Part shown: positions 1,329 through 54,890 of the stretch, in pieces
Layout of the letters: each line of letters begins with the position of its first letter
How positions within the stretch are numbered: position 1 is the first letter of the stretch
Made by a program: the position numbers and the translations under genes
Notes under the pieces: generated by a model
The model's input: only the letters and a program-made list of their open reading frames with translations
The model's database searches: none
Told to the model about the DNA's origin: nothing
Source: Armillaria gallica
Lineage: Eukaryota; Basidiomycota; Agaricomycetes; Agaricales; Physalacriaceae
NCBI GenBank assembly: GCA_037576215.1
Contig: JBANDB010000004.1
Location: forward strand, 2,294,001 to 2,358,000
Reading direction: 5' to 3'
Length of the DNA stretch: 64,000 bases

Positions 1329-2190
1329 AAATTGACGTATATTTCATTGTCACCGGTACTTGTTAGTCTGTTTTATCCCAATGACTGTCCCCCAATTTTG
1401 GCAAGAAAAGTTTTGAGGCTGTGTTAGCTCGGCATTTGCTCGGCAACTGTACAGTACACCGGCCATTGCCGGCCATCCTTTTGTGAGCGTGTGCGTACAT
1501 TAATAATTAACGCGTCAAACCACCTCTCCGGGGAGTACAGTTCCGCTTGATGGGACGAGGCTATTGATGTTATTTAACATCGGCTACCTTGGATTCTGCG
1601 GTTTGGCTCGCGGTCCTGATGCTTTGGTGTCGTACCCACGGTCTCCGGTATTGTTCATTCAATTCCAGCCGTATCATCACGTCGCCGCGTATTCTGCTCC
1701 CTAGCTTGTAGATCCACGCGCGGCTCCTAACGGCATTGACGCACATTGGACCAATGATGATCCGAATGGTAACGCCTCGAGTCCTTGAACAGATATCATT
1801 CACAACATAGAGCATATGCACATATCAATGGTTCCTCTGCCACGCCGTGCGTTCTCTAGGAAGTAATGTGCGGTACCGAAGACTCTGCGAGGACGACGTA
1901 TTCAAATGATTATTTTTACTGCTCGCCCTTCAATTAACTCCACGGTTCACACGCCAATGTTGTGGCATCAAGTCGTGTAGCTCCGACTTGCGTCTCCTTC
2001 ATGCGTTTCTAGGAGGGAGGGTCCGGGTTGGGTCGATTATGATAATCGGCCGCTTTGCCATCATTTTCAATATAAGGGACATAGCAAAAGCCGAGTCACG
2101 CCATCAATCTTCGGATCCCCAAAACGAAAAAGGCTCATTACCCGTTTTGCGAGAGTACAAGTTGGAGAGCCTCTGTTGTGTGCCTCCCCA

Positions 2191-2357
2191 AAGCACTTCA
2201 AAGTCGCCGTGTGCTGCTGCCGCACTGAGACTCCTGTGAAATACGGCAAGAACTAGCTTCATTCTCTAATTTACGCGGCTGACAATGTCTAAGTGCGCCT
2301 GATTTGAGCCTCCACGAAGCACTTCAAAGTCGTAATGTGCGGCGGCAGCAGCACATT
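2191..2357 (+). promoter_or_regulatory. Paired GTGC dyads upstream of A1
   Basis: Two related elements about 127 bp apart, each preceded by AAGCACTTCAAAGTC. The first (about 2207-2229) reads GTGTGCTGCTGCCGCACTG. The second (2334-2357) has perfect 7-base arms AATGTGC and GCACATT around a 10-base spacer. They lie about 50-150 bp upstream of a TATA-like TACAAAAG (about 2396) and the conserved ATGs at 2482 and 2513. The same arrangement recurs upstream of A3 and near B2 and B3. Confidence 0.6.
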
Positions 2358-2481
2358 GGGACCCTAGCACCGGCTGTTTACGTTGGGAAAGAGAAGTACA
2401 AAAGCCGGCCTCATATGATACACCGTCCGGTATTATTGCTGCTGAGTTACTCGTCTTCCCCCAACGTATCTTCTTGTTGTC

Positions 2482-2550
2482 ATGGCCTCCGAAGGATTTG
2501 TTTTCCACAGGCATGTCGCGGACGTTCACCGTGTTCTGCCGATCGACTGA
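2482..2550 (+). other. Conserved short overlapping ORF (possible uORF) of A1
   Basis: A 22-codon ATG frame (starting MASEGFVFHRH) ends at TGA 2548-2550 and overlaps, in another frame, the ATG at 2513. The A3 locus keeps an equivalent 22-codon frame (MTSEGFVFHRH, 33843-33911) with the same length and overlap. This could be an upstream ORF acting on translation, or simply the remnant of a different first exon. Which ATG starts the protein is not settled. Confidence 0.35.
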
Positions 2551-3941
2551 CTCTCGCGAAGTAGTCCCACGTATACCAACGACCCTCTGTAAGTTGTTCT
2601 ACTTTTTATGCCGATCTTCTGACTGAATCGACTCCAGGAACTCCTCGCCCAAGGAGTATATGAGTGGTGAGATTCCTATGTTATGGAATGTAAATGGGAT
2701 CAGGTATGTCAAGTTGGCGTTCTTACGCTTTTCGCCCTGCGAAATTTTTATTGCCATATGATAGTTCGGGGTATGGACCTATAACGACGCCTGGCACGTA
2801 TCCACATCCTTCGACCTGTCAGCTAGACCTGTTTGATCAGGCAACTACGGGGAGGTATGTGTTCTGATGTGGTCTGCATTGAGGCATGCTCAAACATGAT
2901 TAGTTTTCCTATCTACTGCGGGGAAAGTGCCAAGATCATGCAAGACGAGAGAAGGTGCACCTCGTCAACTGTTCGTTGACCAGAGAGAATTCACATTAAT
3001 ATCGAACAGCGCTTTCCAGAATTCTTATGTTGCAGCCCAAAGCTTCAGGTGTGTTGATCCAGATCTGCTCTCATCGATGGATGCTCAATGTCTACCCAAG
3101 CCAATCTCTCGGTGATGACATAAACGAACTTCCTCCAGTATCCTCGTATCTGTCTGTCCTCTGTCTTTAGTTTCACTAGAATTGACTGTAGTATCCGCTT
3201 ATGTTTTAGGTCTTACCCCCCACTGCTGTCGTCGTTATGCTCGTCAGTTGTTTGAGTTTTAAAACTTTGTTTCTACGAGACGCTTATGCTTCATTAGCAG
3301 CAAGGACTCAAATCCGTTCGGCCTTCAAGACTGGTCTGCTTTCGTTGACGGTGGGAGTGGTGATACATCGTTTAGGTGCCATCTTTTTTATTACGCTAGG
3401 AGGGCATTTCCTGATAGAAACCTTTTCAGTTCCGTTGTTATTGGCAGTCTCTACGATTCAAATGGCCCTCAAAATCCACCGATACCAGGAAGTCATTCAA
3501 TGGACACTACGAACGGTGCACAGTGAGATTCGATTCTTGTTAGCCGATTACGGAGTTGCTTACACCCATGCCAGAAACGGGTTTTGCTTTCCAATTGATT
3601 TCCTAACGTTTGTGCCTGGCCAGAGCAATATCCCGTAGGTTGAAAACGCAGCCGTTTGTCTCTTCTCACGAACATTGTCAGTGACGCCGAGAACCAAAAC
3701 GCTTTCCACGCCGTTGCTGGGAGTGTTCCGCAACTGGAATTCACTGACGTAGCATCTGGAATACAGACTCTTCAGTACGATCTACACGTTTAAAACCGCA
3801 GCAGTCTTTGATTATTCTTATACAGGCCCTCCTCTGTCTCCACCCCTGTAACTGAAGCGATGGACGCCGCTGATGGATTGATCAAGCCTTGGCAAGTTTC
3901 TCTCCAGGTATCAATTGAAAGTCCACTGATGCTACTCTCAG
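2513..3941 (+). CDS. A1 upstream exons of three-finger gene (model unresolved)
   Basis: A probable first exon starts at ATG 2513 (MSRTFTVFCRSTDS...) and reaches a GTAAGT donor at 2589. A 49-nt intron-like segment with a CTGAC branch motif follows, ending in TCCAG at 2637. Further blocks conserved with A3 include a segment ending ...AAQSFR before a GTGTGTT donor (about 3050), a block with GLLSLTVGVVIHRLGAIFF (3330-3410) and an acidic block reading IVSDAENQNAFH (about 3670). Frames do not join cleanly with obvious splice sites, so part of this locus may be decayed. Confidence applies to the presence of gene-derived sequence, not to exact exons. Confidence 0.4.
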
Positions 3942-4680
3942 TCCTAATCGGTATCGGAAAGTTCCAGTGCAAGACTGGGCAGTAAATTTGGGCGTCAGTC
4001 CGCACTTGTGCTTCTACTACCTCCGTGATTGTTTGCCGAATACCCAGTACCAATGCTCTGTCGATCGTTGCACGGACACCTTTACAGAAACAGAAATCGG
4101 AAACCACTTCAAGGCAAAACATTATGGGATTGCCAGAAATCCACAGAGGGTGACGTGCAAGGAATGCGGGAGGACCGTGCGGGCCAAGTCCTATCACGAT
4201 CACTTCTTGCAGATACATAGCGGGCGTTCCATTTGTTGCGCCTACTGTACCAAAAGGCAGGTCCGAGTGCAGAACTTTCCTCGTCACTTCAAGACTTGTC
4301 CAGGCCTAAAGAAGTATCGGAAGGGCCAGAAGGCCCTGCGACCCACTTATGATTTCAAGTCGTACCTCCCACCGTCGTCGTCGCCACTCCCGTCAGTTAG
4401 GTCGGCTTTGACGCTTGGTTTCATCCTGCGGGGTACTTACACGCCATTGGCAGTAACCCATACCCATCCGACGTTCAAGAACGGTCTACTTCCAATGATG
4501 GTGGAAGGGATGACACATCGCTTAGGTGCCATCTATTATATTGAAATCAAAAGAAGGTATCTCCTGACAGAACTTCGCCACAGTTCCTCTACACCCTGTG
4601 AACTTGACGATGCTATGGGCACTGAAAAGCCGTCCGTACGAGCAAGGGATCTAATGGAGGCTACGAACTGGGCACAGTAA
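3942..4680 (+). CDS. A1 three-finger exon, reading through into A2
   Basis: The exon begins after a TCTCAG acceptor (3936-3941) and opens with PNRYR. It encodes finger 1 (CSVDRC...H-x4-H, C-x4-C type), finger 2 (CKECG...SYHDH-x4-H) and finger 3 (CAYC...NFPRH-x3-C). In A2 and A3 this exon ends at a GT donor before a 3-4 codon last exon. Here that position (4333) reads GC, and the frame runs on into sequence homologous to an internal region of the gene (the start of A2), stopping at 4680. The ORF is therefore a chimera of A1 tail and A2 body. Zinc-binding fingers suggest nucleic-acid or protein binding; function unknown. Confidence 0.6.
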
Positions 4681-5507
4681 GCCCCGATTTTTGTTACGGA
4701 GATACTCACACTGACGTCAGAAGTGATCTTTACTCGCGCACGAACCATATCCTGTACGTTACCAATGCAGATCTGTCAATTTTCTTCTCAAGTGGACCGA
4801 CTCTAGTGATGGCGACAATGCGAACGCTTCCCATACCCATCTTGGGAGTATTTCACCACCGGACGATGCATCCCCTCTCGCTTTCGGAACAATAAGCTCT
4901 CGGTAGTATGAGCTCTCAGATCTCACCGAGCCGACTCTGATAACTCGTACTTCCACAGCCACCCCTCTGTGACTGAAAAATTGCTCAAACCATGGCAAGT
5001 TTCCTTTCGGGTCTCAGTTGAACCTCTTCTGACGTTGCTCTCAGTCCCGATGGATATCGGGAAGTTCGAGATGATAGTATCCAAACGTGGAAAGGACGAC
5101 CACTACCCGGTCTTCTCGTCTACTACCTCCGCGATCCTCCCGCGATCCCCCATTCGTGCCCTGTCGATGGATGCACAAGCCAGTTTTTCGGAGATGGAAT
5201 TCGTGCTCATCTGAAAGCCGTGCATCGAGGTATCACCTCCCAACTATATCTGAAATGCAGGGAATGCGACCCCAAAGTGTCATGTATCGTAGCAAAGAAC
5301 TATGCGACTCATTTCTTGGATCGACATAGCGGCCATTCCATTCTTTGCGCCTATTGTCTCACGTCGCAAAGCCGAGCGAAGAACTTGCCTCGACACTTGG
5401 TCAACCATTGTTCAGGTCTAAGCTATCCGAAGAAACGGAGGGTAAGTCGCACTGGTTTTTCTGGATCAATGAATACAACTAAAAATGCCAAACAGGCCGC
5501 CGCTTAA
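4342..5507 (+). CDS. A2: 5'-truncated three-finger gene copy
   Basis: It begins inside the gene relative to A3, at a block like A3 34585 onward, and lacks the promoter and first exons. The finger exon is open from 5045 (after TCTCAG) to 5441. It starts PDGYREV, followed by CPVDGC...AHLKAVH, CRECD...ATHFLDRH and CAYC...LPRHLVNHC, and ends KKRR at a canonical GTAAGT donor (5442). A 54-nt intron ends AAACAG and a last exon encodes Ala-Ala-Ala-stop (5496-5507). All three fingers keep their ligands. As it has no visible promoter of its own, it may be expressed only through A1 read-through. Confidence 0.55.
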
Positions 5508-14284: not shown

Positions 14285-16627
14285 AACGCAATCTATCAGA
14301 CATGTCAATATAACATGGAAGGCTTCTTACACATCAAGGCTGACTTCCTGTAATTGTAGTCGCCAATATGATCATTGAGGGTGTCCAGGTAACCACCTGG
14401 TCCCATCACTTTCAAACTCGCGGCCAGCTGATTGAGACGACTCCAACTGCGCTCGGGGGCTTCTCTATCTGTCTCCCTGACATATGGTGTCTTGTAAAAG
14501 GAGTACTTTATATGACAACTTGGTATATGTGCCGGTAGATGGAACTTCGGAATAAGATAGACAAAGTTGCTAGGGTCCTGGGGGGGCTTCATGGAGGTAG
14601 GATATATTGCGATGCGGTCCCATAATTTCTTGGACCATTGACAATTGATATCGTACAATACCACGACACATGAGGGGGCTGACTGCTGCATTCGAGAGCA
14701 AAAAATATAATCCATTCATACTTGTCTGCAAATGGAATAAGTAAGGCTAGCCACCAGAAGTACGGACACTTACTCTTCACCATGATCAAGGATTGTCACT
14801 GCCGCTGGACCCTTCAAATCGTGACGAGCACAATCGACCGTAGCAACGCCACTGGTGGCCAACCCCGCACCACGTTTGCTAGTCACCAGCTTCACTGCCT
14901 GATGATCATGGCAATCACTAGGGTCAAACGGGATACGTTTGCCATATTCAGCGACGTGCTTCCTAAACTCCTCCTGGGCCACTACGAAACCCACTCCATT
15001 GATTAAACTGGGATCACAACCAGCGTTAGATACCACAAACCGGACCAATCGGAAGTTAGCATCAATAGCGACATAGAGTGTATATTTCCATCTTAAGGGT
15101 ATAATAAGCTTGCTGTAAATATGCCTAGGACTGAGAAATAGACATACGGATCTTGTTGATCGGTCTCCCATCCCTCATCCAAATTGATGCCAGGCCATGG
15201 GCATGCTGGGCATTTCACGGCCAATGACCCGACTGGGACAGGTAGTTCGCCAGGAGCTGTGTCTTTGAAATCCCGAGGGTGATTTGTCCAGTTTCCGCTT
15301 CAGAAGCTTGAGGTGCCGCCATTCATGGACCATCCTCATAAATGCTTGGAACCGATTCTAGCTCAATCATTCAGCTGTCAAGTTATGAGCTTCCGAACAC
15401 TGCCATACTTACTGGAGGTTGACATGTACCGGTATTATCAGTCAGGCGTACCAAAGTGTGATAAAATTCATATCCAGAAACCTTCAACATGAACGAGAGC
15501 AAATGAAAAACCTCTAACGTCCGAAACGTGGTAGCCATTTGCGGCTCAACAACTGTTGAAGGGAAAAGGTGGGAACGGAGGAGCTGGCGCCATCGGCCCA
15601 GAGATTGAGTACAGTTGCAGTAGTCGACGTAAACAGTTTGAATGCCATCGAGAGCAATTACCTGGAGCCGTCCTCGGTGGGGAGTCGCACAACAGCTGTC
15701 AGGATCATGTCCTAGGGCGAAGATCATACCCAGTTCACCTAAGGTGGTGCACTTGAAGTAGGTACCAGTCCATTCCTAAAGATGGTGAGAAATGGCACAC
15801 AATACGAAAGGAAAGGCCATACCTCGATACGATGGAAGGGATTCACGTAATGTCATTGTACAATACACTCAGAACAGAACAAGAAACACTCATTACATGA
15901 GCTACATCAATACAATGTCTGGCCATCTCCTGATGTAGATGCTTGACATCCTGCACATTGTGCGGCAAACTGGCCTGGTGATTTGTGTCGAAAAAGCTCC
16001 TCCAAGAAATCCCAGATCTGCGGCAGCCAGTCCCAAAGATGGGGGTCATCCTGATCAAATGATTTTTAGGTGCAATGACAAAACAGAAGGCTGACTTGCC
16101 TGTTGAATATCTGCATCTTCAGTGGATGCCTGAGGATCCATAGCGGCATGAGGATCATCTTCATCCTCCGAGTCTGAGTCGCTATTTTCTTCGTCCAGTG
16201 TGGGACCGTCCAGCCAGGATAGGTCCTCTGCATCCAGTATGGGATCGGGAAGCGCTCTCCTAGGTTTGACAGGACTGGGAGGGGCATCATGATAGCTTGT
16301 GGTGGACCGTAAATGAGAACCACTGTTCACATTAAAATCTGTATGTCGCAGGCGTACTGGAGAGGGAGTTTCAGTGTCCTCATTGAGATCGTTCTCATCG
16401 AAGACAGCATCAGCGACGATCTTTGATCGTTTCAGGAGTCTTTGCATCCTAGGTCACTGAAGCTGGTGGAAGAATTGTGATGAAATCAGTGGTCAAGCCC
16501 AGGTGCTAGCCAAATAAGACCCTTTTTCATATGATGGTAAATATTCCGCAAATATGAATATCTAAAATATCATACCAACATCAATATTGATTATATCTGG
16601 TAGTGACACCCCGGACAGTCAGACTAG

Positions 16628-24010: not shown

Positions 24011-24444
24011 TTATATGAAGAAAGTCCCACATTATTTTACTATGTAACATAGCTTGCTTCAACGGATCAAGGGCATGTAGTTAGCGATCTTCTGCTGTTT
24101 CAATGTGCGAAAAATGTTCGTCGGGCAAGCAAATAGGTCAAGAAAAATATGTTCCCAAGTCTATCTTGGGGTACAACAGTTCCGGATGACCAAGTATTAA
24201 TAACACTGTAAGACACTAAGCTCCGTCATATCTTATCTATGTCCAAATTAGGTTATACAGTCATCACCTGGTCCTCTGTACACCACTATTCCTTTGTACA
24301 TTTGAATATAGCTTCTCTTTCTGCTGTGTTATGGTTCCATTTTCATTTTTATCTTATAGAGTACAGTATATGCCATCAAATTACCAACAAAAATCAAGTC
24401 AAGGAGGCTTGTATCAGTCAGGAAAAAATCAATAGTAGCTGATA

Positions 24445-24773
24445 CTAGAGATCTTCATGAGTGTCACTCGCAGACACTCACATTTTTTTGTTATTTAAAG
24501 AACTCATGATTGAAATATGCAAAAAAGACAAAAAAATAACTAATCTCCACTGTTTTTTGAGCTCTATTCAATGGTAACTGGGGTTTTATATTTATATGAC
24601 ATTTATAAATCCTTAATGTGCTTGAAATATAAAACCCCAGTTACCATTGAATAGAGCTCAAAAAATAGTGGAGATTGGTTATTTTTTTGTCCTTTTTGTA
24701 TATTTCAATCATGAGTTTTTTAAATAACAAAAAAACATGAGTGTCTGCAAGTGACACTTGTGAAGATCTCTAG
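24445..24773. mobile_element. Foldback MITE, copy 1 (329 bp)
   Basis: Almost the whole element is one long inverted repeat: CTAGAGATCTTCATGAGTGT at 24445 and its complement at the right end (24773), with arms meeting near 24600. Flanked by CTGATA (24439-24444 and 24774-24779), a 6-bp TSD. No coding capacity. Second copy at 37515-37842. Confidence 0.9.
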
Positions 24774-24779
24774 CTGATA

Positions 24780-33004: not shown

Positions 33005-33559
33005 ACAATTAGTCCTGATGCTCTGGTGCCATACCAACGCTCGCCGATACTGTTTATTCAATTCCAGCCGTATCGTCATGTCGCCGCGTATTCTGTTGCC
33101 CAGCTCGTAGATCCACATTCCTAACGACACTTACTTGCGTTGGACCAATGACCATCTGAATGGAGTGCCTCAAGTCCTTGAACAGATATCACGATTCACA
33201 AAATCTAGAGCACATGTATAATTCAATGGTGCCTCTGCCGCACTGTGCATTCTCTAGAAAGCAATGTGCGGTTCCGATCAGCGAGGACGTATCAAAATGT
33301 TTATTTTTACTGCTCACCATTCAATCAACTCCACGGTTCACATGCCAATGTTGTGGCATCACATCATGCAGCTCTGACTTGTGTCCCCTTCATGTGCGTC
33401 TTTAACTGTGCGCGTAGAAAAGTGGGTCCGGGTTGGATCGATTTTGACAATCGGCTGCTTTTCCATCGATCTTCTGATCCCCAAAACGAAGAGCTCAGTA
33501 GGAACTCTTACCATTCTACGAGGCTACAAGTTGAAGAACCTCTGATGTGTGCATCCTCG

Positions 33560-33764
33560 AAGCACTTCAGAATCGCAGTGTGCTGCTGCGGCACTGAGAC
33601 TCCTATGAAATATATGGCAAGACCTAGCTTCATTCTCTAATTTGTGCGCTGACAGATTTGAAGTGCGCCAGATTTGAGCCTCCATGAAGCACTTCAGAGT
33701 CATAATGTGCGGCAGTAGCAGCAGCACACCGAGACCCCAGCACCGGCTGTTTGAAGTATAAAAA
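33560..33764 (+). promoter_or_regulatory. Paired dyads plus TATA box upstream of A3
   Basis: First dyad 33576-33596 (CAGTG...CACTG); second 33704-33729 (AATGTGC, GC-rich spacer, GCACAC), about 130 bp apart. Each is preceded by AAGCACTTCAGA. A TATA box (TATAAAAA, 33757-33764) follows 28 bp after the second dyad. The conserved ATGs lie 79 and 110 bp further on (33843, 33874), a sensible promoter geometry. Confidence 0.65.
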
Positions 33765-33842
33765 CCAGCCTCATATGATACACCGTCCGGTATCATTGCT
33801 ACTGAGCTACTCGTCTTCCCTCCAACTTATCTTCTTGTTGTC

Positions 33843-33911
33843 ATGACCTCCGAAGGATTTGTTTTCCACAGGCATGCCGCGTGCATTCACCATGTTCTGC
33901 CGTTTGACTGA
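33843..33911 (+). other. Conserved short overlapping ORF (possible uORF) of A3
   Basis: 22-codon frame (MTSEGFVFHRH...) ending TGA 33909-33911, matching that at 2482-2550 in length and sequence. It is the first ATG after the TATA box and overlaps the ATG at 33874. Confidence 0.35.
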
Positions 33912-35767
33912 CTCTTGCGAACTAGTTTCACCAACAACCCCCTGTAAGCTCATTCTTCTTTTGGTGCCGATCTTCTGACTGAACGACTCCAGGAGCTCCT
34001 CGCCCAAGGAGGATCTGGCTGGTGCATTGTTGACCCTGAGCGAGCTTCCGATTATATGGAATGCAAATGTGATCAGATATGTCAATTTGGCGTTCTTACG
34101 CTTTTTTGCTCTGCGAGATTTTTATCGCCATGTGATAGTCCGAGATATGGACTCGTAATGCTGCCTGGCACATATCCACCTCCTTCGATCTGTCAGCTAG
34201 ACCTGTTTGATCAGGCAACTACAGGGAGGTACATGTTCTGATGTGGTCTGCTTTGAGGCATGCTCAAACTTTGTTAGTTTTCCTATCTGCTATGGGGACG
34301 ATAGCGAGATCATGCCAGACCAGAGAAGGTACGCCTCACAATTGTTCCTTGACCAGAGAACTCACACTAATATCGGACATAGCACTTTCCAGAATTCTTA
34401 TCTTGCAGCCCAAAGCATCAGGTGTGTTGTTGATCCATATCTGCTCTTGTCGATGGATGCTCAATGTCTACCCAAGCCAATCTCTCGGTGATGGCCTAAA
34501 TGAGCTTCTTCCAGTATCCTCGTATCTGTTTGTCCTACGTCTTTAGTTTTACTAGAATTGTCTTTACGATCCGCTTATGTTTTTAGGTCTTACCCCCCAC
34601 CGCCGCCGTTGTTATACCTGTCAGTTGTGTGCGCTTTAAAGCTTGGTTTCTATGCGATACTTATGCTTCATTAGGAGCAACGACGCAACTTCGTCCGACC
34701 TTCAGGACTGGTTTGCTTCCATTGATGGTGGGAGTGACGATACATGGTTTAGGTGCCATCTTTTTTATTACGTTTGGAGGACATTTCCTGATAGATCCCT
34801 TTACAGTTCCTTTCTTTTGGGCGATCTCAACGATTCAATAGATGCTGAAAAGCCATCGGTACCAGGAAATTGTCCAATGGAGGTTACGAACTGTGAACAG
34901 TGAGCTTTGATTTTTGTTTGCCGATTACGAAAATATTTACACTCATGTCAGAAACGGGTTTTGCTCTCTAATCGATTTCCTAACGTTTGCACCTGGCATG
35001 AGCAGCATCCTGTAGGTTGAAAATGCAACCGTGTCGTCTCTTTCTCAAGTACATTGTCAGTGACTTCGAGAACCCAAACGCTTTCCACACCGTTCCTGGG
35101 AGTGTTCTGCAAATGGAGCATACTGATATCATAGCATCTGGAATACAAACTCCTCGGTATGATCTACTTTAACAGCGCATTCTGTGATAACTTATGTGCA
35201 GGTGCCCCTCTGTCTCCACCCCTGTGACTGATGCGATTGATGCCACTGATGGATTGATCAAGCCATGGCAAGTGTCTTTGTGGGTATCAATTGAACGTCT
35301 ATCAATGTCATTTTCAGTCCTAAAGGGTATCGGGTCGTTCTGGCCCCTCCTTTGCAATACTGGGCAGGCCTCAGTCCTGATTTATGTGTCTATTTCCTAC
35401 GTGATCCATCAGCGAATACACAGTATCATTGCTCTGTCGATCACTGTACAGACATGTTTACAGAAAAAGAAATCGGGAACCATCTCAGGGCAAAACATCA
35501 TGGGATCGAAGCTTATGATGATGTGACCTGCAAGGAATGTGGGCAGACCATGCATGCCAAGTCCTATCAAGATCACTTCTTGCAGTTACATAGCGAACGC
35601 TCCATTCATTGTGCCTACTGTAACAGTAGGCAGGTCCGAGTGCAGAACCTGCCTCGTCACTTCAACATTTGTCCAGGCCTAGACAAGTATTGGAGGGCCC
35701 GGAAGGTTTGTCGTACTTATCTCTAGCTCAATGAATTACAACTGAAATTCATCCATAGACCGCTTAA
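33874..35767 (+). CDS. A3: three-finger Cys/His-rich protein gene
   Basis: Best copy of the family. A probable first exon (MPRAFTMFCRLTDSCEL...) ends at GTAAGC (33944). The body holds an open Cys-rich block (MECKCDQICQFG...FLSPCDSPRYG, 34060-34170), a block ending AAQSIR (34421), a block with FRCHL (about 34750), one reading IVSDFENPNAFH (about 35060), and TPVTDAIDATDGLIKPWQ. The finger exon is 35318-35705: PKGYR, finger 1 CSVDHC-x11-H-x4-H, finger 2 CKECG...H-x4-H, finger 3 CAYC-x12-H-x3-C. Its length (1 + 387 nt) leaves phase 0 for a 9-nt last exon, Thr-Ala-stop (35759-35767). Upstream splicing is unresolved. Probably nuclear and nucleic-acid binding (inference). Confidence 0.6.
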
Positions 35768-37473: not shown

Positions 37474-37514
37474 TATGTATTGTCCGTCTGTCTATGAGAG
37501 ACTACAGGGTAACA

Positions 37515-37842
37515 CTAGAGATCTTCATGAGTGTCACCCATGAGTACTCGTGGTCCATTGTTATTTAAATAACTCATGATTGGAAAATGCAAAAAGAATG
37601 AAAAAAAACTGATCTTCACTGTTTTTTGAGCTCTATTCAATGGTGAATGAGGTTTTATATTTCAAGAACTTTTATGATTTCTGAATAGCTGTCAAATATA
37701 AAACCTTATTCACCATTGAATAGAGCTCAAAAAACAGTGAAGATCAGTTATTTTTTCATTCTTTTTGTATTTTCCAATCATGATTTATTTAAATAACAAT
37801 GGACCATGAGTACTCGTGGGTGACACTCGTGAAGATCTCTAG
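37515..37842. mobile_element. Foldback MITE, copy 2 (328 bp)
   Basis: Same terminal sequence and folded structure as 24445-24773 (CTAGAGATCTTCATGAGTGT...). Conserved central words include GAGCTCTATTCAATGGT and its complement. TSD GTAACA (37509-37514, 37843-37848) differs from copy 1's, as expected for an independent insertion. Confidence 0.9.
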
Positions 37843-37849
37843 GTAACAC

Positions 37850-38610: not shown

Positions 38611-38997
38611 CAAGAAATTTCTATAGCCTATGCGATGATTAATACGGTGAATAGTCAGTGAGAGTTGAGTAGTGACGTATGCCTGATATCCATAACAAAC
38701 TCCTCGCCCTATATCAATGACTCTGATGCCCCAAGTCAATCAGGAAATGAAAACAGGTGATGCGAAATACCGTTGAAATGCATTTCCTCCCTCACAGAAA
38801 CCGGAAAAGTAGAATCTTTGATACAAGTTCCATGGCAGCGGGCTTACCATGGCAGAAAGCCCATCATACCATCATCCCTTGTGGATACTCCCTGCATCAA
38901 TCTTGGCATTGATGGGCTCCTTAGCAAGTTCAACACCACCCTCAGGACATCATACACTCAGAACACATCCCTGTCCTTCCTTCTCGATGGCTGCATT

Positions 38998-42269: not shown

Positions 42270-43670
42270 ACCTGCCACGCCCCGCGATGGCCCACCACTT
42301 CATTAGAAAGGACTATGACTTTGGCATTGCATATGGCCATCTCCACCCTTTTTGGTACGAATTGACCACCATAGAAGACAACTTACGCACAGACAAGAAG
42401 AAAGACCAGGATATGCGACAAAAAGCAATTGTGTGTAACCGGATTGTTAGCACAAAAATTCGCCCTCAACATGTTTGGGACCTCTATAGTAATTGGGTGA
42501 TGCCCTGTTGGGTCATGAAAAATAAGCAGTGGCCAAAGCCGATATCCTATGGATGAGAGAGATTGCATCGACATGTGGACACCCATTAATGGGTGCAAAT
42601 GGCCAGTGCCCATCCCAAATGACACTGAACTGGATCTCATCTGAATGGAGATGCTGAACCTGGGAGCGGAGTATACATGGTTGGACGTTCTCTGTTTGAG
42701 ACAGAAAGGTGGACCAAGAGAGGATCTGCGTACAGAAGAGTGGAAGCTAGATGTACCCGTGATCGGATTGGTGTATGGATGCAAGCAAGCTGTGTTGTAC
42801 CTCAGTGGTGGCCTGGGGTGACCTTTGAGTTTGAGCGCTGGTGACTTGAACAGCGATCGGTGCTGGTTCAGATGGGCATGGACACTGCAGGAAGCTGGTG
42901 AGGATCAGATCATTGCTGGGGATACCGAGGATGGACCTCTGCATGCCGAGCTGATAGATGAGGAGGGGAACTATGCAGACGAGATGCTGACAAGGTTTCA
43001 CCAGCAGCTGCATGCCTTGGACAACATCTCTCCAGATTCATACAAGATATTTGGCATGCTGGCAGAGATGCGGAGACAGATGTCAGCCAAACCTGTAGAC
43101 AAAGTCACTGGATTGGCATTTCGCCTTGAATCAACTATGATACCAGCATACAGTGAGGACCAATCCCTCAAAGGTGCTTGGACAGCATTGGTGAATACAA
43201 TTGTTCCATGGCTTCAGGGGGATCTGTTCTTCAGGGAAGGAAGGCAAGAAATGGAGACCCTCGTGGGGCCAGGTCCTGATGGAACCTCTGCCAGAGGAAG
43301 GCGAGTGTGGAGCATGGGTTGGTTGGGATAATGAGACAGGTGAAGACTGCTGTGAAGGGTACTGCATTGAAAACGGGTATGTGCAGGGCCTGGCTGTTGG
43401 ACACACCGACGGGGTTGATTGAGATGGAGAGTTCACTGTTGATGATGCCTACGGGAAAACACATGTTTTCAAAATCATTGCCACCCACCAGGTTCTCATA
43501 CCTGAAGCGGTGTATACTCTAATAGGTGTACACATGGCACCAGAGTATTGGGTCGTCGGGTGAAGATTGCCAGAGTGGAGGTTCGAGAAACTGTCAGTGT
43601 TCTAAATGGCCGTCGTTGAGGAAAGAGACAGGTTGAAAAATCTGAATATTGCCACCATTTCTTGTAGCAT

Positions 43671-45633: not shown

Positions 45634-46196
45634 GCGCTCAGCTAGCCTGGCAAGTCCGGCTTTATTATATACTCACGGAACTCGTATCTGTATATAAAGC
45701 CTGGTACCCGGGGCGGAGGTCCATAGAGGAACCCCCAAATCTCAACATATTTCAAACTCAGACGTGATCCGGCTGTCCGGCTCACTAATAAGTGATGACA
45801 CATCACTGAATTTCAGGACTGAGGACTTCGAACTGCTACCCCAATCAAGTGTAGGGTATTGAAGACCATGGAAAATAACGACGGAGGAATGGATGGTATC
45901 AGAGGTCTTTTATTAAAACAAGATTCTCTATACAGCTCAAGGGAAATGACAATAGGAATGACTTATCTGGCAGTGTTCCTATTCTTCTAGACTACACACA
46001 GCAGCCAAATAGCGCAATAAGCATGAAATGCCTCGGACAAGTGGAACGCAGCTGTAAATGAAAAGATGCTTCAAAGACGCGTCGCGCGGCGCGTGAGAAT
46101 ACAAGCACGTGCCGGCTTATCTTCGGCATCCTTTCGGAGTTCGAAAAATCGTGAGATTGGGGGGTTCCTCTATAGACCCCCGCCCCGGGTATCAGG
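45634..46196. repeat. Inverted-repeat element with 45-bp arms
   Basis: Arms 45700-45744 (CCTGGTACCCGGGGCGG...) and 46152-46196 are complementary over about 45 bp with a few mismatches. The left arm is preceded by a 50-bp segment (45648-45698) that begins with the same CCTGG and holds an A/T inverted repeat (CTTTATTATATAC...GTATATAAAG). The outer word GCGCTCAGCTAGCC is also mirrored beyond the right arm. Probably a MITE, but no target duplication was seen. Confidence 0.6.
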
Positions 46197-47560
46197 CTAG
46201 CGCTCAGCGCTGTTACTGCCTGACATCGTGATCCCCTGCAGACAATCCTCGTCTAGCGCTCATACCATTTAGAATTCTCATCAAAGGCTAGGACCACCAA
46301 GCCGAGTACAATAGTACGGTTAATTTGCCAATGTGGCTCGTTGGCTCCTCGAAAAGACATACCGACGACTCTTTGAACAAGCGTTGTGGTGCTGACAAAT
46401 AGCTACTCTCGAGAGGGAGGGTCGGGCACTAGGAACCAGCACCGCGACTTCCAAGATTACCTCTACAAGACTTCGTTGACTTACTAGTTCGACTCTGCGC
46501 GGCCCCGGCATACAAGATACGGTTTACCAGGCAAACCGGAGGCGAAGCTGAATCGTCGCGTCAGGTTCAATAAGTTGTATGCTGTTGTATGTCGAGAGTC
46601 GCCAACTTGTGGAAATACGGATGTGTTCTGACTCCCGAGAGACGTCGGGTACGAGCCAGTGAGCATTGGGACGCGGCCCAGACGTGGCACCTAGAGAATG
46701 TAGCGGACTCAATACCGCCGAAAGATACCTCCGGCCAGGAGAAGACATGATTCCCACTGGAAAATGACAATCCCATCGCAAAACCCACACAATCTTATCC
46801 CGCCCTCTGTCCGTTTTGGGCACCCCTCGTAACAAACGACTTATACTTATGGTCGTGTCTCTCGTTGCTGTAGTCGGCCCTGCTAGTCTCTATGTCAAGA
46901 TTAGTTGGAATGCCCAACTCGGATTTGGATGATGCGCGGATGTTCATTCATCTGCATCACCATCATTGTGCGTCTCATACGTATGTGAGGACAGCCAAGG
47001 TCAATACTCTATGGGGGTGTCATCTTCTGCCGGACGTCCTTCGATAACATCTGGGAATCTGCCGTTCATTATGTATTTCGTCGATATCAATCATTCACCG
47101 ATTACCGATGAATGATGGAGACTCTACGCAAAGTACTAACTCTCGTTTCACTCACCGAATCACTGCAACTGATGTAGTGCCTCAGGCTGTTATCCGTGCT
47201 TCCAAAACTCAATTCAGAGCCGCAATGCACTCGTGAGCACTTCCTAAAAGCGACTGGGTATGATGTAGGCCGATCTTTGTATCAGGGTCTAGATGGACCC
47301 GCTGGCTCACTGCAGTTCGACAACGCTGAAGCGTCTGTCTCCACGATTCAGACTGCTCTTTGAGCTGTTCGGACACGATTGGGAGTACACAGGGATGAAA
47401 TGCTCCTGCACCCGTTACTCGACTTACCACCAGAATACTCTTCCCTTTCCTTAAAAGCGCCTTCCTTTCGTTGACCTCCAAACACTAATATCCCCACCAG
47501 TCCGTTCGCCCTCGCCTTTGAGTTCTGCTGATCAAATAACCTACGTGATTTATTCAACAG
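46197..47560. other. No recognisable gene
   Basis: Small ORFs only. Sequence just upstream of B1 could include its promoter, but the dyad pair seen at A1, A3, B2 and B3 was not found here. Confidence 0.35.
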
Positions 47561-47579
47561 CATAGCACCGTTAAAAATG

Positions 47580-48765
47580 TATGTTCGTTCTGAATCTCAT
47601 TTTGATCTTCCGTCTGAATGATTCCAGGGACTCGACTTATTCTTTTGATGGTCCTGAGGGTATGGGGTACGCGTTCCAACACGTTCTGCCTCGATCTCGG
47701 CCCTTATTTTGTCAGATTTTCTTCCCCATACCCCTACGGAGGCTACGTCGGAGCAAGACGAGACGAGAGAAGGTACGGCTTGCCATCCCTTCTCGACTGG
47801 GGAAGGTTTCAATCTGATACCATTACCAGCGCATCACGGCGTTCAGCGGCACTTCAGGGCTTCAGGTGCATTTCTCCTTCCTACTGATTCTTCTCTCTAA
47901 CGTCTATGGAAGTCCATCTCCAAACAGGGATTCAAATGCCAGTTCTGCCATGTATGCTTCAGAGGCTGGTATCGTTTCCAACTTGTCTGCTCAGTGCGTA
48001 TATTGTATTCTTTTCCAGGACCATCGCTAATACCGCTTATGTGCTCAGCTCTTTTCTACCGCCGCCATTACATTCTTCAGCCAGGTAACTTTGAAGCTTG
48101 GTTTCAAGCATTGTGATACTTACTCGCGTTCCAGCACTCTAGACCCATCCAAGGTTGTTGGAGGACAGAATACGTCCAACAACGGTGGAGATTTTAGGTG
48201 TGACCTAATAGATTATGTGTCTGGGAAACTCCTGACCGAATCGCTGCAGTTTCTACAGTACCAACATCCCGAACACACCTGGAACTTTTCCGTGGGCCCA
48301 GCCAATGTAAGTCGTTCACATAGTATTCACCGCATGATGCCAATGTCACTTTCAAGGCCTGGTGGGTATGAGCAAATCATTCTCTCTCGTGGACACGTCT
48401 CCGACTGGGAAGAAGGGTTGACTCTCGATGCAAGATACAACTTCTGCTATCAGCGCAAAATCGAGCCTGTTCGCCTCAAGTGCCCGCTATGCGCTCAAGA
48501 CATATTGGGCTGTAACATCCGCCAGCATCTGAAGGAAACCCATCGTGGCTACTGTCAGAAAGATAGCGAAAAAGTGAAATGTTTCGAATGCGGACCGTTG
48601 GCGCGCCCGATGAACGCGAAGTCTTATCCGGATCATGTCCGCGAGAGACACTGCCGTCTTTCCGTTCTTTGTCCCTACTGTGGAGAGGAATTCACCCGAG
48701 GAGAGAGTGTGACGCGACACTGCATTACCGTTTGTAAAACGCTCATTCCATATCGACGCCAGTAG
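47580..48765 (+). CDS. B1: three-finger Cys/His-rich protein gene
   Basis: Upstream, a 49-nt intron-like segment (GTATGT...TTCCAG, 47581-47629) resembles the first intron of A1. A body exon contains SNNGGDFRCDLIDYVSGKLL (about 48170-48235) and ends at GTAAGT (48307). After TTTCAAG (48356) the finger exon 48357-48765 reads PGGYE, GLTLDARYNFCYQR, finger 1 CPLCA-x10-H-x4-H, finger 2 CFECG...SYPDH-x4-H, finger 3 CPYCG...TRH-x4-C, and ends PYRRQ-stop. There is no extra last exon, unlike the A type. The order of motifs matches A3 throughout, so A and B are one family. Frames of the upstream exons do not join unambiguously. Confidence 0.6.
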
Positions 48766-49789
48766 ACTGCCAGGTTTGTAAGTCTTGTATCTGTGTCAAT
48801 ATTCGTCACTAATGGTTTGGTAGTTTCTCTTCGACTGCATGCTTCTGCGCGTTCCATTTCAGCATTCCACCCTAACGTGAACTGGGGTCCCTCTTTACAG
48901 TGTTTTGTTAACGACTTACCATATCTACCCATGAGGTGTTCAACCAGGTTCTCTAATTCGGTGGTATCTAGTAGACAGACGCTAAATACACGTCTGCGGA
49001 TGTAGTTTAAATTGGTATCTCCGCTCTGCATTCTTCTCTAATCTCTTTTTGGGCCTGGCGCCCATCTCAAGTTGTCGTAATTAGTTATCTTTGTTTCCAT
49101 GATATTCATCGTCTTTTTAAGAATTGTAAGTCGGCCATTTGATACTGACCTTGTTTACATGGGCGCTTTCGTCACTCCTAGTCCTGGATCGGGCCAAGAC
49201 CCAGCGACTTTCCACCCCCTCTATAAACTTCTACTAAGTACTAAGTAGAACTTCGTGGTATAAAAGTCGTTGAGCCTAGCACAAGTCAGGTTCAATAGAA
49301 TCTACACTAATCCTAGTAGACAAGATTGGTAAAAGATTGATCGAATAAAAGTTCGGCACTTCATAATTTATGATACGTACTTATATGTATGTTGAAATCT
49401 AATTCTAAGCTTATTTGACTGGTATGAAAATCACCTGCAAAACTTATGCAAAACACAGTGAGTACGTTGGATCGTTCAAGTTTCAGCCGAGGCGCTGATC
49501 CTGAGATACTAAGTAGTCTAAAGGTAAAAATTCTAAAAATCCGTCAGGGAAGAGAAGGAAGGATACTTACTTGCTATTCCTATGCAATGTCATCTTAGCA
49601 AAGTGTGTAGCTTGAAGTTGCGAAAATGGCCGGTACGAGCCCGAAGTTCAACTTGCAATTTAGGAACATCACTTAGCTGCACATGAAAAGGATAACTTCA
49701 ACGATTTGCCCAGCTACAATGGGCGTAATATAAGGTGAGCCACAGCCTAGGCCCTAGGCTTTAAGTAAACTGCAGAGCTAGCGCTCGAT
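48766..49789. other. No recognisable gene
   Basis: AT-rich spacer downstream of B1, only small ORFs. Confidence 0.4.
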
Positions 49790-50700
49790 CGGCCTGGACC
49801 GTACACTGTCCCTCCAGTGATCGAGTGGCTGTGCGACACCTTTATTTGTTCCTTTCCACCAGTCTGCGCCTCTCGCCGGTCTGTATTGTCCCTTTTTCAC
49901 GGGATCAAGTTATGTTCTCCTCGTTATAACTGATAATCGATAAAACATTGATTGTAGATCTTTTAGCACGTTTGGCGGCCCCGAGTTGGCCCTGAGAACC
50001 CCATATAGCCACCATTTGACCCCATCTCGCACATAAGCGCTAAGCCTATGCGACAGATGACGACCCATTACAAACACTACTTACTAGAATGACACCGGGC
50101 CTGGCCGGCCTATGACACCCATTCCCCGTCACGCGTCACTGCCCGCCATTGTCCAAAAAACCGGTACAATTACCCCATCCCCTACCCAGCATGCCCCACA
50201 TCGACATCGGGGCCAATCGCCTGCGCACAGTGAATCTGCACACACCAACGACTACGGATGCTGTGTAGGATTGTAGATTGAATACCATCTGTAAGGATGA
50301 GCATAAAATGACCAGGACAACGACAACGATCAACGGGACAATGGCGACAATGTCAGGAGGGCCGGAGAGGCTTCGTGGATGAAGGAGAGCCATTGCAGCT
50401 GATATGGAATGGATGCTGTGGAACCGGACATGCTGTGGAGGGTACAGGAGGATGGAAGGGTACGAGCGGGAGGGTGAGATCGGTCCTCCGACATTCGACA
50501 TTGACAGCGACGACGTCCATCCGGGCATCAATTCTCCTCTCCAATACGCGATGGACAACCAAGGGGGCGATGCTGCGGGCATCGACGGCTCCGCGAATGC
50601 CACTCCGCCCGAAACCAACGTCGTCACTTACTGCCGTCCACTCTTCCTGCACACTTTATGCATCTTACTTACTGGCTGCGTCATTCTTTTAAGACTGTAG
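49790..50700. repeat. Degraded repeat related to 31.35-32.15 kb
   Basis: Shares 'gatcgagtggctgtgc'-like and 'cgacatcggggcc' words and a GAC/ACA-rich tract with the 31 kb repeat. ORFs on both strands overlap each other and are not credible genes. Confidence 0.35.
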
Positions 50701-51422
50701 AGGTTCACCCGGAGTAAAAGTGTTATAATTGTCAGGGATGAATTTCTTTTCGCAATGATACTGCAAACTTACGGTGTCCTAGTATGTCGACCCATTTTAG
50801 GCGCACAGAATTTTTTTGGACTAAGTAATGCAATAGTAGACTGTCGGTGTCCGCCCAAGATCCCGTATTATTATCCAGGGATACCCAGCATATAAGCTCC
50901 ATCAATAGGTTGATATCATCTGTCTACGAGAGACTAGCCAATGCCTACTCGACTTCAAATACCCGGCGCACCTTCGAAGCATGTGCTTGTAGACTTTGAC
51001 CCATATATGGGCGTGCTCTGCAGATTTAGGAAGCTCGTATATTACTAACATTGATACAATGATAGCGGAGGAGATGACAAAGAGCTATAACTGAAGTAAC
51101 AAATAGTAACGACGGTGGTAAAACGATGAACGAAGACTAAATTTAAAAGGACTGATACGGGATTGGAAAAATGAAACGAGGACTTCTGATTACGCTTAGA
51201 TATGTCGTTGAACAGGTAACGAATAGAAACAGAGAGAAAGGGTTGAACATAGTTATATGTAACACTCAGAGGGTGAGGAACATCGTGGCCGCGTCGTGAG
51301 CATCGGCATGAAGTCATGGAAACTGACGTGTAGAACAGCGTGTGCTCACTGAAGAAAATCTACGAGGAACTTTATTATCACCCATAGCTCAAATAAAACT
51401 CATGTCAGACAAACCTGGCTGT
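50701..51422. other. No recognisable gene
   Basis: Spacer downstream (3') of B2; nothing supported. Confidence 0.4.
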
Positions 51423-52110
51423 CTACTGACGTCGATACGGAGTGAGCGTTTTACAAACGGTAATGCAGTGTCGCGTCACACTCTCTCCTCGGGTGAATTC
51501 CTCTCCACAGTAGGGACAAAGAACGGAAGGATGGCAGTGTCTCTCGCGGACATGATCCGGATAAGACTTCGCGTTCATCGGGCGCGCCAACGATTTGCAT
51601 TCGAAACATTTCACCTTTTCGTGATCTTTCTGACAGTAGCCACGATGGTTTTCCTTCAGATGCTGGCGGATGTTACAGCCCAATATGTCTTGAGCGCATA
51701 GCGGGCACTTGAGGTAAACAGACTCGACTTTGCGCTGATAGCAGAAGTTGTATCTTGCATCGAGAGTCAACCCTTTTCCCCACTGGCCGGAGACGTTTCC
51801 ATGGGAGAGGGTGATTGGCTCATACCCATCAGGCCTTGAAAGTGATATTGGCATTATGCGGCGGAAACTAAGTGAATGACTTACATCGGACTGCACTTAA
51901 TGGGTGTTGATTGGGGCTCTATTGGCCAATACTGAGCAATCCTGGAGATGGCATTAGCATATAATGCCCCAGATACATAGCAGGACTTGCAACGGTGTAG
52001 GAGTCGGAGAATTTGTCAAAGCACCGGCAATGGAAAACGTACTGTAGATGCCCTGTGAGGAGCCGTCCCAGTAACATAGTCTATTAAGTCGCACCTGAAA
52101 TCAAGTGTTG
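51423..52110 (-). CDS. B2: three-finger gene, inverted near-copy of B1
   Basis: Finger exon 51834-51423 on the minus strand, after a TTTCAAG acceptor, reads PDGYE, GKGLTLDARYNFCYQR, then the same three fingers as B1 with few changes (CPLCA, CFECK, CPYCG) and PYRRQ-stop. An upstream block (52110-52075) keeps DFRCDLIDYV, but a one-base change shifts the frame just after it relative to B1. So the upstream part may be damaged although the finger exon is intact. Confidence 0.55.
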
Positions 52111-52216
52111 GAGGAGGCGTTTGTGCCATGGATACGAGGGTCGATAGGCAGTGAAAGAGCCTTTACTACAGCTCTTCTATATTCTCTCCTTCACGTCTCA
52201 AAGTGCAGTTGCGAGA

Positions 52217-52326
52217 GCAGCACATTGTGGCTCGGCCAGACCTTGGAACGGAGGACAGAGTCACTCTGTAACTTCTAGTTGATTGACGGAGCGTCCCAGT
52301 GCCCAATGTGCGGAAGTAGTACATTG
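52217..52326. promoter_or_regulatory. Paired GCACATTG dyads upstream of B2
   Basis: A half-site GCAGCACATTGTGG (52217-52230) and a dyad CAATGTGC-GGAAGTA-GTACATTG (52304-52326), about 91 bp apart. They lie about 100-220 bp beyond the conserved upstream block of B2 and are followed on the plus strand by an ATG at 52695 (MFNLVHLCF) that has a counterpart near B3, so they could serve a divergent promoter. Confidence 0.5.
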
Positions 52327-54195
52327 CGCCTCTGAAGTGAATTGTAGGCGCTTGAGTTTGAGACTCGTCAAGCGAGGCTGGCTTTGGATCAAAGGCGTTA
52401 TGGTTAGTTGACATAACTGTATAGGGAGGAATCGAGACGCAATGGAGACACATACGAGGGACCTAGAGAGAGCCAGCTGATACTCGTGCCACTGCAACGC
52501 TGAGGTACAATCCAAACTCTAAACAAGCGCATTCAAGCTCATCGTGGCTGACACCGGAGGCTTCAAAGACGATAACACGGGCCACGCCTGATAGATCTAC
52601 ACGGAATTGATCCAACCTATATGTGTAATTCGTCTCCCAACAACCATTGTGTCTCCAGAGCGGAGCCGCACACACACACACTGGTGCGTTATGTTTAACC
52701 TCGTGCATTTATGCTTTCAGCCGAAAGATGGAAGACAAGGTGAACGTACAAAAACGCTCTTACGTCATTTACGCCGTTCGGCGTTGAGTGATGAGAGACG
52801 CGACATGGAAACACAGTCCGTTCAATTTTCCGACGGTCAAAACAACGCCGGATATCCCGCCGTGTGAGGTTCTACGAGCGGAAGAGAGAAACCGTATCGT
52901 AATGCGATTCGAAGAAAGACGTCAATATTGCATGGAAGGCTGATGGTAGAGTCAGGAAAACGGGAAGATCATCGTTTAATGGGTCTACCAGAACCGCACC
53001 AAAGACGTAGTGACCAACTCAATCAAAATTCAGGCCTCACAAGATTTGGAGGCCTCGCGCCGATCGACAGCGGGCGGGCGAACATGGATCAATAGGTTGC
53101 TTGGGACAGTAGCAGAGCGGTTACGGTTGGAGGAATGGCAACGAGAACGCAGAGATAGATACCTAAAAGGTGGAGGAGGCCAGTTTTTGAGCAGGAGAAC
53201 TAGCAATGGTTCAACCTGTAGTTCTCCTTGTGCGAAGCAGATCAGAATCATGAGGCTGTATTAAGAACCACGTACCAATTTCCTTTGTTACTTATGAGAG
53301 ACATATCTCGATGCTCACAAAAAGTCCTTGCAAGCGCCAGAAGGCCCTTTGGGCGCATACTACCGTGTATTAGCTAGCGTCGCCGTCTCGATGAGTTCAG
53401 ACTGGTCCCTTATGAGATAGATAACGCAGGGTGAAATTACACCTCGCTGGTCTCGCGCGTTAAGATCCATCGGTGTCACTCTTACCGCTCAACGTTTTCC
53501 AAAAAAAACGAATGGCGACTCGGACCCAGAAGACCCACCAAGGATACTGTTCGCTCTTCCTGTTGGAGCTTTGGATTCGCCCATCCTGAAGATAATCTTT
53601 CTTCAATACCCTGACATATATTTGGGCTCTAGAGAGACGACATCTTAGAAATATGTGGCTTTGGAAATATACTTTAGTCACCTACTAAAACCACAATTGA
53701 CGCGAACAAACATTTAACAAAGTGGGGGATGCGACGTTTAATAACATCAATATCGTCTTTTTTTATCGGAGATTCGGTATGTGCCATCATCCGGCCGAGT
53801 AGTCTTGTAAACCACTGTACACTCAACGATGCGTACGAAGATAAACCGTTCAATGGATGTAGATGCTAGAATTTGATCAAGGGGCGGAGGTGCGAGCGCT
53901 ACTTGAAAAGGTGTGATTGCCGATCCGGCATTGCAGGCGCTCACGTCCCGAAATGGATGACGGACCGCGGTCGCCAATACTCAGGATTGTTAACAGGCCA
54001 TCGTATTCCACAGAAAGAAAATGATCTCGCAAGAAGTGATTTAGCCGCATGCTATGTAACCCCTATATTGTCGCGCTACTACCGTGCATTTAAGAGATAA
54101 GGGTGAAGGTAAAATCATAAAATAGAGTCGCATGCTGACGCTGACGAGTCTGCCAAAACCCTTCAAAGACAGCTTTACAACGCTGAATCAGTAGT
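52327..54195. other. Diverged duplicate of 55.2-55.7 kb; otherwise no recognisable gene
   Basis: 52570-53000 shares ordered words with 55450-55700: CCTCGTGCATTT / CCTCGTGCGTTT, 'gagacgcga', GACGTCAATAT and 'ggttctacgagc'. So the B2 and B3 loci were duplicated with more than 1 kb of 5' flank. The plus-strand ORFs here have no recognised motif. 53000-54195 holds nothing supported. Confidence 0.4.
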
Positions 54196-54890
54196 CTACC
54201 CCCGTCTATATGGAGTGAGCCCTGGACAAGAGTCGATGTAGTGCCTCGTCATGTCATCCTTAGGGGTGAATTCGGTGTCACAGTAGGCGCAACGACGAGT
54301 AGAAACACCGCAATGTGTCCTGAGGACATGGTCCACATATATCCCAACATCCATGTCGTCCATTGTACATGCAGGACATGCCACCTTGAGGTATTTACCG
54401 TCCTGGGAGAAACCAGGGTGATTGACCTTCAAATGTTTACGGATTTCATACCCGTAGATAGCCTTAGTGCAGGGGGGGAGGGGACATTGGAGTCGAAAGT
54501 CTTTGGTAGGTCTGCGCTCATAGCAGAAGCGATAGCTGGCGTCAAGAGTCAATGTTGTTGCCCAATCGTCAGGGAGCACTGAAAGGAGTTTGGCTACCCG
54601 ATACCCGACAGGCCTTAAAGTAACATGAGTTGTCATGGATTATGCCTCAAATACACTGGTACTGACACTGGCTTCGGCTTCATAAAGGTGAAAGCATTCC
54701 GAACCCCGGATGGAGAGGAACTAGAGAGGTTCTGTTACGAGCTGCATAATACAATCTATCAGATCTCACCTAGCTGATGTAACGGCTCTTCCACCATCGT
54801 TGGAAGTATGCCAACCTTGAGCGATGCTGTATGCACGAGAAGTGCTATTGGTCGGTAAGATCAGGTAGCATGAAGGAATGTTTTAAAACA
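54196..54890 (-). CDS. B3: three-finger Cys/His-rich protein gene (diverged copy)
   Basis: ORF from ATG 54636 to stop 54196: MTTHVTLRPVGYRVAKLLS, WATTLTLDASYRFCYER, finger 1 CPLPPC...IRKHLKVNH (C-x4-C as in the A type), finger 2 CPAC...YVDHVLRTH, finger 3 CAYCD...TRHYIDSC, end TPYRRG. Upstream on the same strand (54810-54740) a block reading TSNDGGRA...DLID matches the SNNGGDFRCDLID block of B1, with an in-frame stop where Cys is expected. The finger ORF can stand alone from its own ATG (146 aa). Confidence 0.55.

Follow-up and report, generated by a model that had tools for sequence, protein, structure and literature searches.

The genus Armillaria is noted for tree disease and for clones of great size and age. 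Here we describe a family of zinc finger genes in Armillaria gallica, starting from a stretch of 64,000 nucleotides (C4:2294001-2358000, referred to here as the window) of an assembly of 86,048,263 bases in 28 contigs. Its members carry one or two triplets of fingers in the order C2H2, C2H2, C2HC, and two described kinds of zinc finger protein stand closest to them. With the classical C2H2 transcription factors (PF00096) they share the C2H2/C2HC ligand order, predicted finger helices and, in most copies, the normal x12 spacing of finger 3, whereas finger 1 mostly has x11, TGEKP linkers are absent and the last ligand is Cys. With the zf-Di19 proteins (PF05605; Di19, KCMF1, RNF114, RNF125, RNF138 and RNF166) they share two C2H2 fingers in tandem, joined by a short linker that is not of the TGEKP type, but the Armillaria family adds a third, C2HC finger, lacks a RING or ZZ domain above cutoff, has a long acidic body in its A-type members and has C-x9-C in finger 2 of its C subfamily. 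No published description of a three-finger Armillaria family was found in the literature searched, and we regard this large family as a lineage-specific form of an already known kind of zinc finger, unnamed as far as that literature shows.

A 2025 survey reports 51 C2H2 genes in A. mellea, identified by PF00096, of which 55% are dispersed and 20% proximal duplicates (PMC12295980). Given that PF00096 matches 4 of 23 members of the family described here at an E value of ≤0.1 (best, 0.0039), domain-based counts probably miss most of it. The gene models, the copy census and the apparent mosaic history presented below make the binding targets of clustered fungal zinc finger genes directly testable.

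Six finger triplets in five genes

Stop-to-stop translation combined with a pattern search identified six open finger exons in the window (A1, A2, A3, B1, B2 and B3), each encoding C2H2, C2H2 and C2HC fingers in this order. All 12 zinc ligands are kept in all six triplets, in agreement with a preliminary description of the window. A profile built from the six exons matched the same six and no further one in the window at an E value of ≤1, and a pattern with the family spacing matched 6 times in the window but never in 40 first-order Markov resamplings; since this pattern was tuned on the family, the latter result serves as a check rather than as independent evidence. The near-fixed spacing that had been noted before does not hold, as finger 2 varies (C-x2-C-x(11-14)-H-x4-H) even among the window copies.

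Gene models were built with our own spliced protein-to-DNA aligner, using Armillaria proteins as guides, and the exons were then joined, with several splice junctions picked by hand to preserve the reading frame. This yielded five models of 4 to 21 exons, all without internal stops. Triplets A1 and A2 lie in one gene (A1A2), so that the six copies of the preliminary description are six triplets but only five genes. Support for this fusion comes from P0018 of A. solidipes, which carries both triplets joined nearly as in our model, and from P0021 of A. nabsnona, which starts at an internal Met of the model, spans the first triplet as well as the larger part of the second body, and has almost identical exon joins. 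From the 3' part of exon 10 onward, A1A2 follows spliced alignments to these two proteins, which differ in where exon 14 ends (4400 or 4391) and where exon 17 begins (4721 or 4724). Exons 1 to 9 and the start of exon 10 are less certain, being deduced from the comparison of A1 with A3 and from partial similarity to P0026 and P0027. In the B-type genes, the start codon of B1 is interrupted by intron 1 (47579-47627), and exon 2 of B3 differs when P0002 is used as the guide instead of P0010.

The 47 modeled introns are 44 to 65 nucleotides long and start with GT (40), GC (6) or AT (1). The AT donor belongs to intron 3 of A3, whose other 12 introns start with GT or GC. GC-AG introns are frequent in the family and occur at 2511, 3892 and 4995 in A1A2, at 33872 and 35268 in A3, and as intron 2 of B2. 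An in-frame TGA ahead of the A-type fingers falls inside a 50-nucleotide GC-AG intron common to A1, A2 and A3. The (P)xGYR/E motif formerly taken as an exon start marks a real junction, more precisely a splice acceptor, which is used by annotated Armillaria proteins. Among the upstream body blocks proposed at the same time, those of A1 and A3 proved to be coding (in-frame exons; P0024, P0026 and P0027), but 1613-2481 is modeled as 5' flank, and DFRCDLIDYV of B1 and B2 spans a splice donor (DF.S, then gtgyga) and does not represent conserved protein. Of the 13 exons ahead of the finger exon, 3 differ in length between A1 and A3, in each case by a multiple of three, with some of these junctions chosen by hand.

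Relation to known families and distribution of homologues

No Pfam family reached its cutoff in the 35 distinct A, B and C proteins or exons scanned (P0020 and P0022 to P0024 lay outside these scans, and one scan of 23 members was read from E values). The nearest family is zf-Di19, with 13 of 23 members at an E value of ≤0.1 and a best E value of 0.0038 in that scan, but its cutoff of 27.5 bits was reached by none of the 35 sequences. Two distant relatives on contig C3 that were scanned for Di19 gave 36.2 bits, which passes, and 26.7 bits, just under the cutoff. Among structural matches of fingers 1 and 2, KCMF1 ranked first, a possible rather than a firm sign of a shared fold. The PF00096 cutoff of 25.2 bits was not reached either, the best window copy being B3 with 17.8 bits. 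Searched against PDB sequences, the six-exon profile matched DNA-binding C2H2 arrays best (Aart, 2.7e-9; CTCF, 2e-6). The earlier statement that the finger order matches no named family therefore stands at the Pfam cutoffs, but has to be qualified by the resemblance of fingers 1 and 2 to the Di19 tandem pair and by the distant relative that passes the Di19 model.

Three protein searches retrieved 27 distinct homologues, and all 20 named ones are from Armillaria (A. gallica, A. solidipes, A. nabsnona, A. novae-zelandiae and A. mellea), labeled "hypothetical" or "C2H2-type"; no well-characterized family, which would have refuted the preliminary description, emerged. These searches started from A and B members, for which the restriction to Armillaria is indicated; that indication does not cover subfamilies C and D. 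The annotated proteins ARMSODRAFT_767059, EDD85DRAFT_117290 and F5146DRAFT_1053849 are direct homologues that share the exon order, and in the first two the A1 unit is continued by the A2 unit, as in A1A2. Their annotations are database labels only, and several of the models are shorter at the N terminus than the exons found in the window. Nine A. solidipes homologues (ARMSODRAFT) presumably lie on one contig of 192,192 bp.

Genome-wide census and subfamilies

We searched the assembly with B1, A1, A2, B3 and three further members; all counts are lower bounds. The local family of the preliminary description turned out to be part of a larger cluster that extends past both ends of the window (C4:2253813-2492051, 238 kb) and holds at least 16 triplet loci, six of them within the window. 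Two cluster loci are decayed, C4:2284535 being broken by stops and C4:2417091 being without an intact finger 3. Seven more loci were found at C4:783258, C4:793941, C6:719282, C6:725005, C9:518584, C2:7984954 and C5:6399604, and more distant three-finger relatives form two arrays on C3 (C3:4803697-4853398, 5 matches; C3:5913264-5932755, 3 matches). A weak partial match at C9:972371 (E value, 8.2e-4) was excluded from all counts. The B-like triplets on C2 and C5 (L006 and L004) are near-identical; their distance from a contig end is ∼74 and ∼79 kb, suggesting that a subterminal block was duplicated.

For alignment, 23 triplets were extracted, leaving out the two decayed loci, six of the C3 matches and C9:972371. 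In this alignment, a single residue is shared by at least 21 rows only in the columns of the 12 zinc ligands, each of which is conserved in 22 or 23 rows. Finger 2 has C-x9-C instead of C-x2-C in 9 of the 23 copies, which we refer to as subfamily C, and the C9 copy has C-x12-C. In the tree of the 23 triplets, the B group (100/99), the A+B group (88) and the C group (89) were recovered with the bootstrap values given, and two distant C3 rows fell outside (94). Small pairs with firm support are A1 and A3, A2 and C4:2275888, and two C-type pairs.

Selection on the fingers and an apparent mosaic history

Ratios of nonsynonymous to synonymous divergence (dN/dS) were calculated by the Nei-Gojobori method with our own script and are quoted genome-wide for the 24 pairs with a synonymous divergence (dS) under 1.1. 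In 22 of these pairs, which share sequences and are hence not independent, the ratio for the fingers was 0.14 to 0.87, with an upper bound below 1 in 17. The five others below 1 are C4:2480824 versus B1 (0.87), B2 (0.74) and the C5 and C2 loci (0.68 each), and B3 versus the C2 locus (0.71). Over the finger exons, dN/dS was 0.38 (0.22-0.64) for A1 and A3, 0.54 for A1 and A2, within 0.43-0.54 for A2 and A3, and 0.48 for B1 and B3; A2 versus C4:2275888 gave 0.42, and three C-type pairs gave 0.26, 0.25 and 0.14.

A mosaic history of A1 and A3 is indicated by several comparisons. Their synonymous divergence is 0.157 in the body versus 0.485 in the fingers (Fisher P = 0.0003, rounded counts), and their introns differ at 62 of 492 sites in introns 1 to 9 versus 46 of 194 in introns 10 to 13 (Fisher P = 0.0007). 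At the protein level, the last N-terminal exons of A3 differ slightly in similarity to A1 (55/80) and to A. solidipes P0024 (49/81), whereas for the fingers the difference is large (110/122 to P0024 versus 83/119 to A1). On the simplest reading, the 5' parts may have been recombined or gene-converted between paralogues that kept distinct finger blocks; an uneven mutation rate or uneven constraint could also produce the contrast in divergence.

Local duplication of gene units

The repeat formed by A1 and A3 (1613-4333 versus 33012-35706, 78.5% identity in a BLASTN self-match) reaches upstream of both genes. Its 869-bp 5' flank at A1 was found at three places in 86 Mb, namely, at its own site, ahead of A3, and at C4:2278440-2279191, ∼2 kb ahead of an A-type triplet (C4:2275888; the search skips very common words). 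Given that all three sites lie in the cluster beside A-type loci, gene units were duplicated locally, which argues against coding by a mobile element. Genome-wide, the flank was not seen as part of a dispersed repeat, with terminal repeats and target-site duplications not systematically searched for each copy. The suggestion of the preliminary description that the copies are element-encoded regulators is thus not borne out.

Proposed function and alternative explanations

We consider it slightly better than an even chance that these genes are locally amplified cellular genes of Armillaria encoding nuclear regulators, each composed of a nucleic-acid-binding zinc finger module and a body that recruits the transcription machinery. 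The computations establish the family itself, its gene models and copy number, the conservation of its ligands and the selection on its fingers, and they point to mosaicism; beyond this, we infer that the genes are expressed and that their products would be located in the nucleus, where the net-basic triplet would bind nucleic acid, DNA more likely than RNA, and the N-terminal body would recruit the transcription machinery and contribute to regulation. Copies would arise through duplication of gene units inside the cluster, with 5' parts seemingly exchanged by recombination or gene conversion, and would then either retain their fingers under selection or decay. The proteins consist of a low-complexity N-terminal body, strongly acidic in the A type, and one or two triplets. 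The bodies of A1A2 and A3 have net charges of -21 and -26, contain 2% basic residues and are rich in Ser, Pro, Thr, Gly, Asn and Gln, and all six triplets of the window are net positive (+4 to +17). An AlphaFold2 model of triplet B1 has a mean predicted local distance difference test score (pLDDT) of 86.7 and a helix in each finger. In the model of P0018 (mean pLDDT, 65; predicted template modeling score, 0.40), the linker 145-263 falls under a pLDDT of 50, as expected for disorder. Acidic A-type bodies, basic triplets and a predicted disordered linker together suggest the layout of a nuclear regulator.

Several observations weigh against this proposal. A test for activation tiles in the window genes gave no excess over shuffles, and the B bodies are short and near neutral. 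The selection proposed in the preliminary description is evident in the fingers of most pairs, but dN/dS exceeds 1 in the two youngest pairs, namely, B1 and B2 (1.22 [0.51-6.16] over 136 codons, an interval that includes 1, and 1.96 over 130 codons) and the nearly identical copies on C2 and C5 (2.66, from five changes), as well as in the N-terminal body of A1 and A3 (1.30 [0.86-2.18], again including 1). A more far-reaching idea, to which we give little credence, is that the cluster is the fungal counterpart of vertebrate zinc finger clusters, i.e., a genus-specific array making new finger proteins that repress transposons or police the genome of a fungus with long-lived clones; such an array would keep forming them by duplicating gene units, doubling triplets and exchanging 5' bodies between fingers.

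The main rival, which we regard as unlikely but worth keeping in view, is that the triplet serves as an adaptor that binds protein or poly(ADP-ribose) in ubiquitin-dependent control and has no part in transcription. One study reports that the C terminus of RNF166, which includes Di19, binds poly(ADP-ribose), but also that its Di19 part did not do so on its own (PMC10937711). In another report, KCMF1 and plant DI19 are presented as cofactors of UBR4 (PMC7618180). Against such a role, the Di19 cutoff is unmet in the A, B and C members scanned, DNA binders lead the PDB sequence matches, and no family related to ubiquitin, RING and ZZ included, came above cutoff in Pfam scans of the family proteins, the RING-like matches being weak (Prok-RING_1, E value of 0.0056 in one member; zf-UDP, 0.096). 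Rather improbable in our view is an arms-race locus for genome defense or self/nonself recognition, selfish or incompatibility-like, with birth, exchange and death of copies; genome-defense factors and selfish genes had been among the options of the preliminary description. The decayed loci in a 16-locus cluster, the signs of 5' exchange between A1 and A3, and the dN/dS of the two youngest pairs, on few changes, would fit it, while purifying selection on the fingers in most older pairs does not. The HET gene adjacent to the family does not appear special, since none of 83 genome matches to HET lies in C4:2253813-2492051 at an E value of ≤0.001 (150 of 177 candidates scored; the list lacks the window's own HET gene despite its E value of 3.9e-6 in the protein scan). 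Matches to the STE3 receptor were located on C1, C2 and C5, and neither HET nor STE3 genes showed enrichment at the cluster, in a comparison that did not include homeodomain mating genes. Pfam scans of the family proteins found no toxin-like or death domain above cutoff.

Two further explanations were considered. That they are mostly decaying relics whose fingers are retained by chance would agree with the AT donor in A3, the dN/dS of the A1-A3 body and the two decayed loci in other parts of the cluster. We nevertheless hold it to be very unlikely, as the five window models are intact, A1 and A3 exon lengths differ by multiples of three (with the hand-chosen junctions mentioned above), matching proteins are annotated in other species, and finger dN/dS is mostly well below 1. 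Least probable of all is that a transposon encodes and spreads the finger proteins as cargo. The window does contain a KDZ/CxC2 element, and a dispersed repeat lies near B1 (45641-46200, with inverted arms at 45698-45762 and 46134-46198). A query holding this repeat had 56 genome matches, most of them in that part, three being 92 to 95% identical over ∼560 bp, but the repeat is a separate element, with its best other copies on C8, C11 and C15, contigs without a detected family locus. The confinement of the A1 flank to the cluster, the presumed single contig of the nine A. solidipes homologues, and the lack of a transposase above cutoff in Pfam scans of family proteins likewise speak against cargo.

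Features of the window and of the family (positions are those of the window)
Feature	Position	Strand	Details
Gene A1A2	2482-5507	+	21 exons, 650 aa, two triplets, no internal stop
A1A2 exons 1-7	2482-2510, 2565-2588, 2638-2703, 2765-2854, 2904-2954, 3010-3048, 3101-3145	+	
A1A2 exons 8-14	3210-3242, 3301-3375, 3430-3522, 3575-3634, 3682-3774, 3826-3891, 3942-4391	+	
A1A2 exons 15-21	4454-4525, 4584-4676, 4721-4753, 4807-4902, 4959-4994, 5045-5441, 5496-5507	+	
A1A2 5' flank	1613-2481	+	duplicated with gene; BLASTN self-match and genome search
Gene A3	33843-35726	+	14 exons, 395 aa, one triplet; last five exons from P0024 alignment
Gene B1	47577-48765	+	9 exons, 259 aa; spliced alignment to P0005, P0008, P0025
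Gene B2	51423-52129	-	exons 52129-52095, 52041-51991, 51941-51885, 51834-51423; 184 aa; guides P0006, P0009
Gene B3	54196-54926	-	exons 54926-54898, 54844-54770, 54720-54667, 54613-54196; 191 aa; guide P0010
Open finger frame A1	3919-4677	+	C2H2, C2H2, C2HC in order
Open finger frame A2	5022-5504	+	C2H2, C2H2, C2HC in order
Open finger frame A3	35295-35723	+	C2H2, C2H2, C2HC in order
Open finger frame B1	48031-48762	+	C2H2, C2H2, C2HC in order
Open finger frame B2	51426-51896	-	C2H2, C2H2, C2HC in order
Open finger frame B3	54199-54639	-	C2H2, C2H2, C2HC in order
Triplet A1	3942-4391	+	C-x4-C-x11-H-x4-H, C-x2-C-x11-H-x4-H, C-x2-C-x12-H-x3-C
Triplet A2	5045-5441	+	second triplet in gene A1A2
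Triplet A3 exon	35318-35726	+	
Triplet B1 exon	48357-48765	+	
Triplet B2 exon	51423-51834	-	DNA 92% identical to B1
Triplet B3 exon	54196-54613	-	
KDZ transposase	14305-15775	-	two pieces, with CxC2 cysteine cluster
HET-domain open frame	57480-59246	+	588 codons; Pfam E value, 3.9e-6
C-x9-C subfamily C loci			L013, L027, L042, L044, L049, L050, L051, L070, L073

Neighboring elements

Besides the KDZ transposase and the HET-domain frame, the window holds a second HET copy that is divided into two parts 3.3 kb apart (38698-38996 and 42297-43636, forward strand). A pair of ∼330-bp repeats (24444-24773 and 37514-37842, 79 to 80% identity) matches in both orientations and is thus palindromic, like a small inverted-repeat element.

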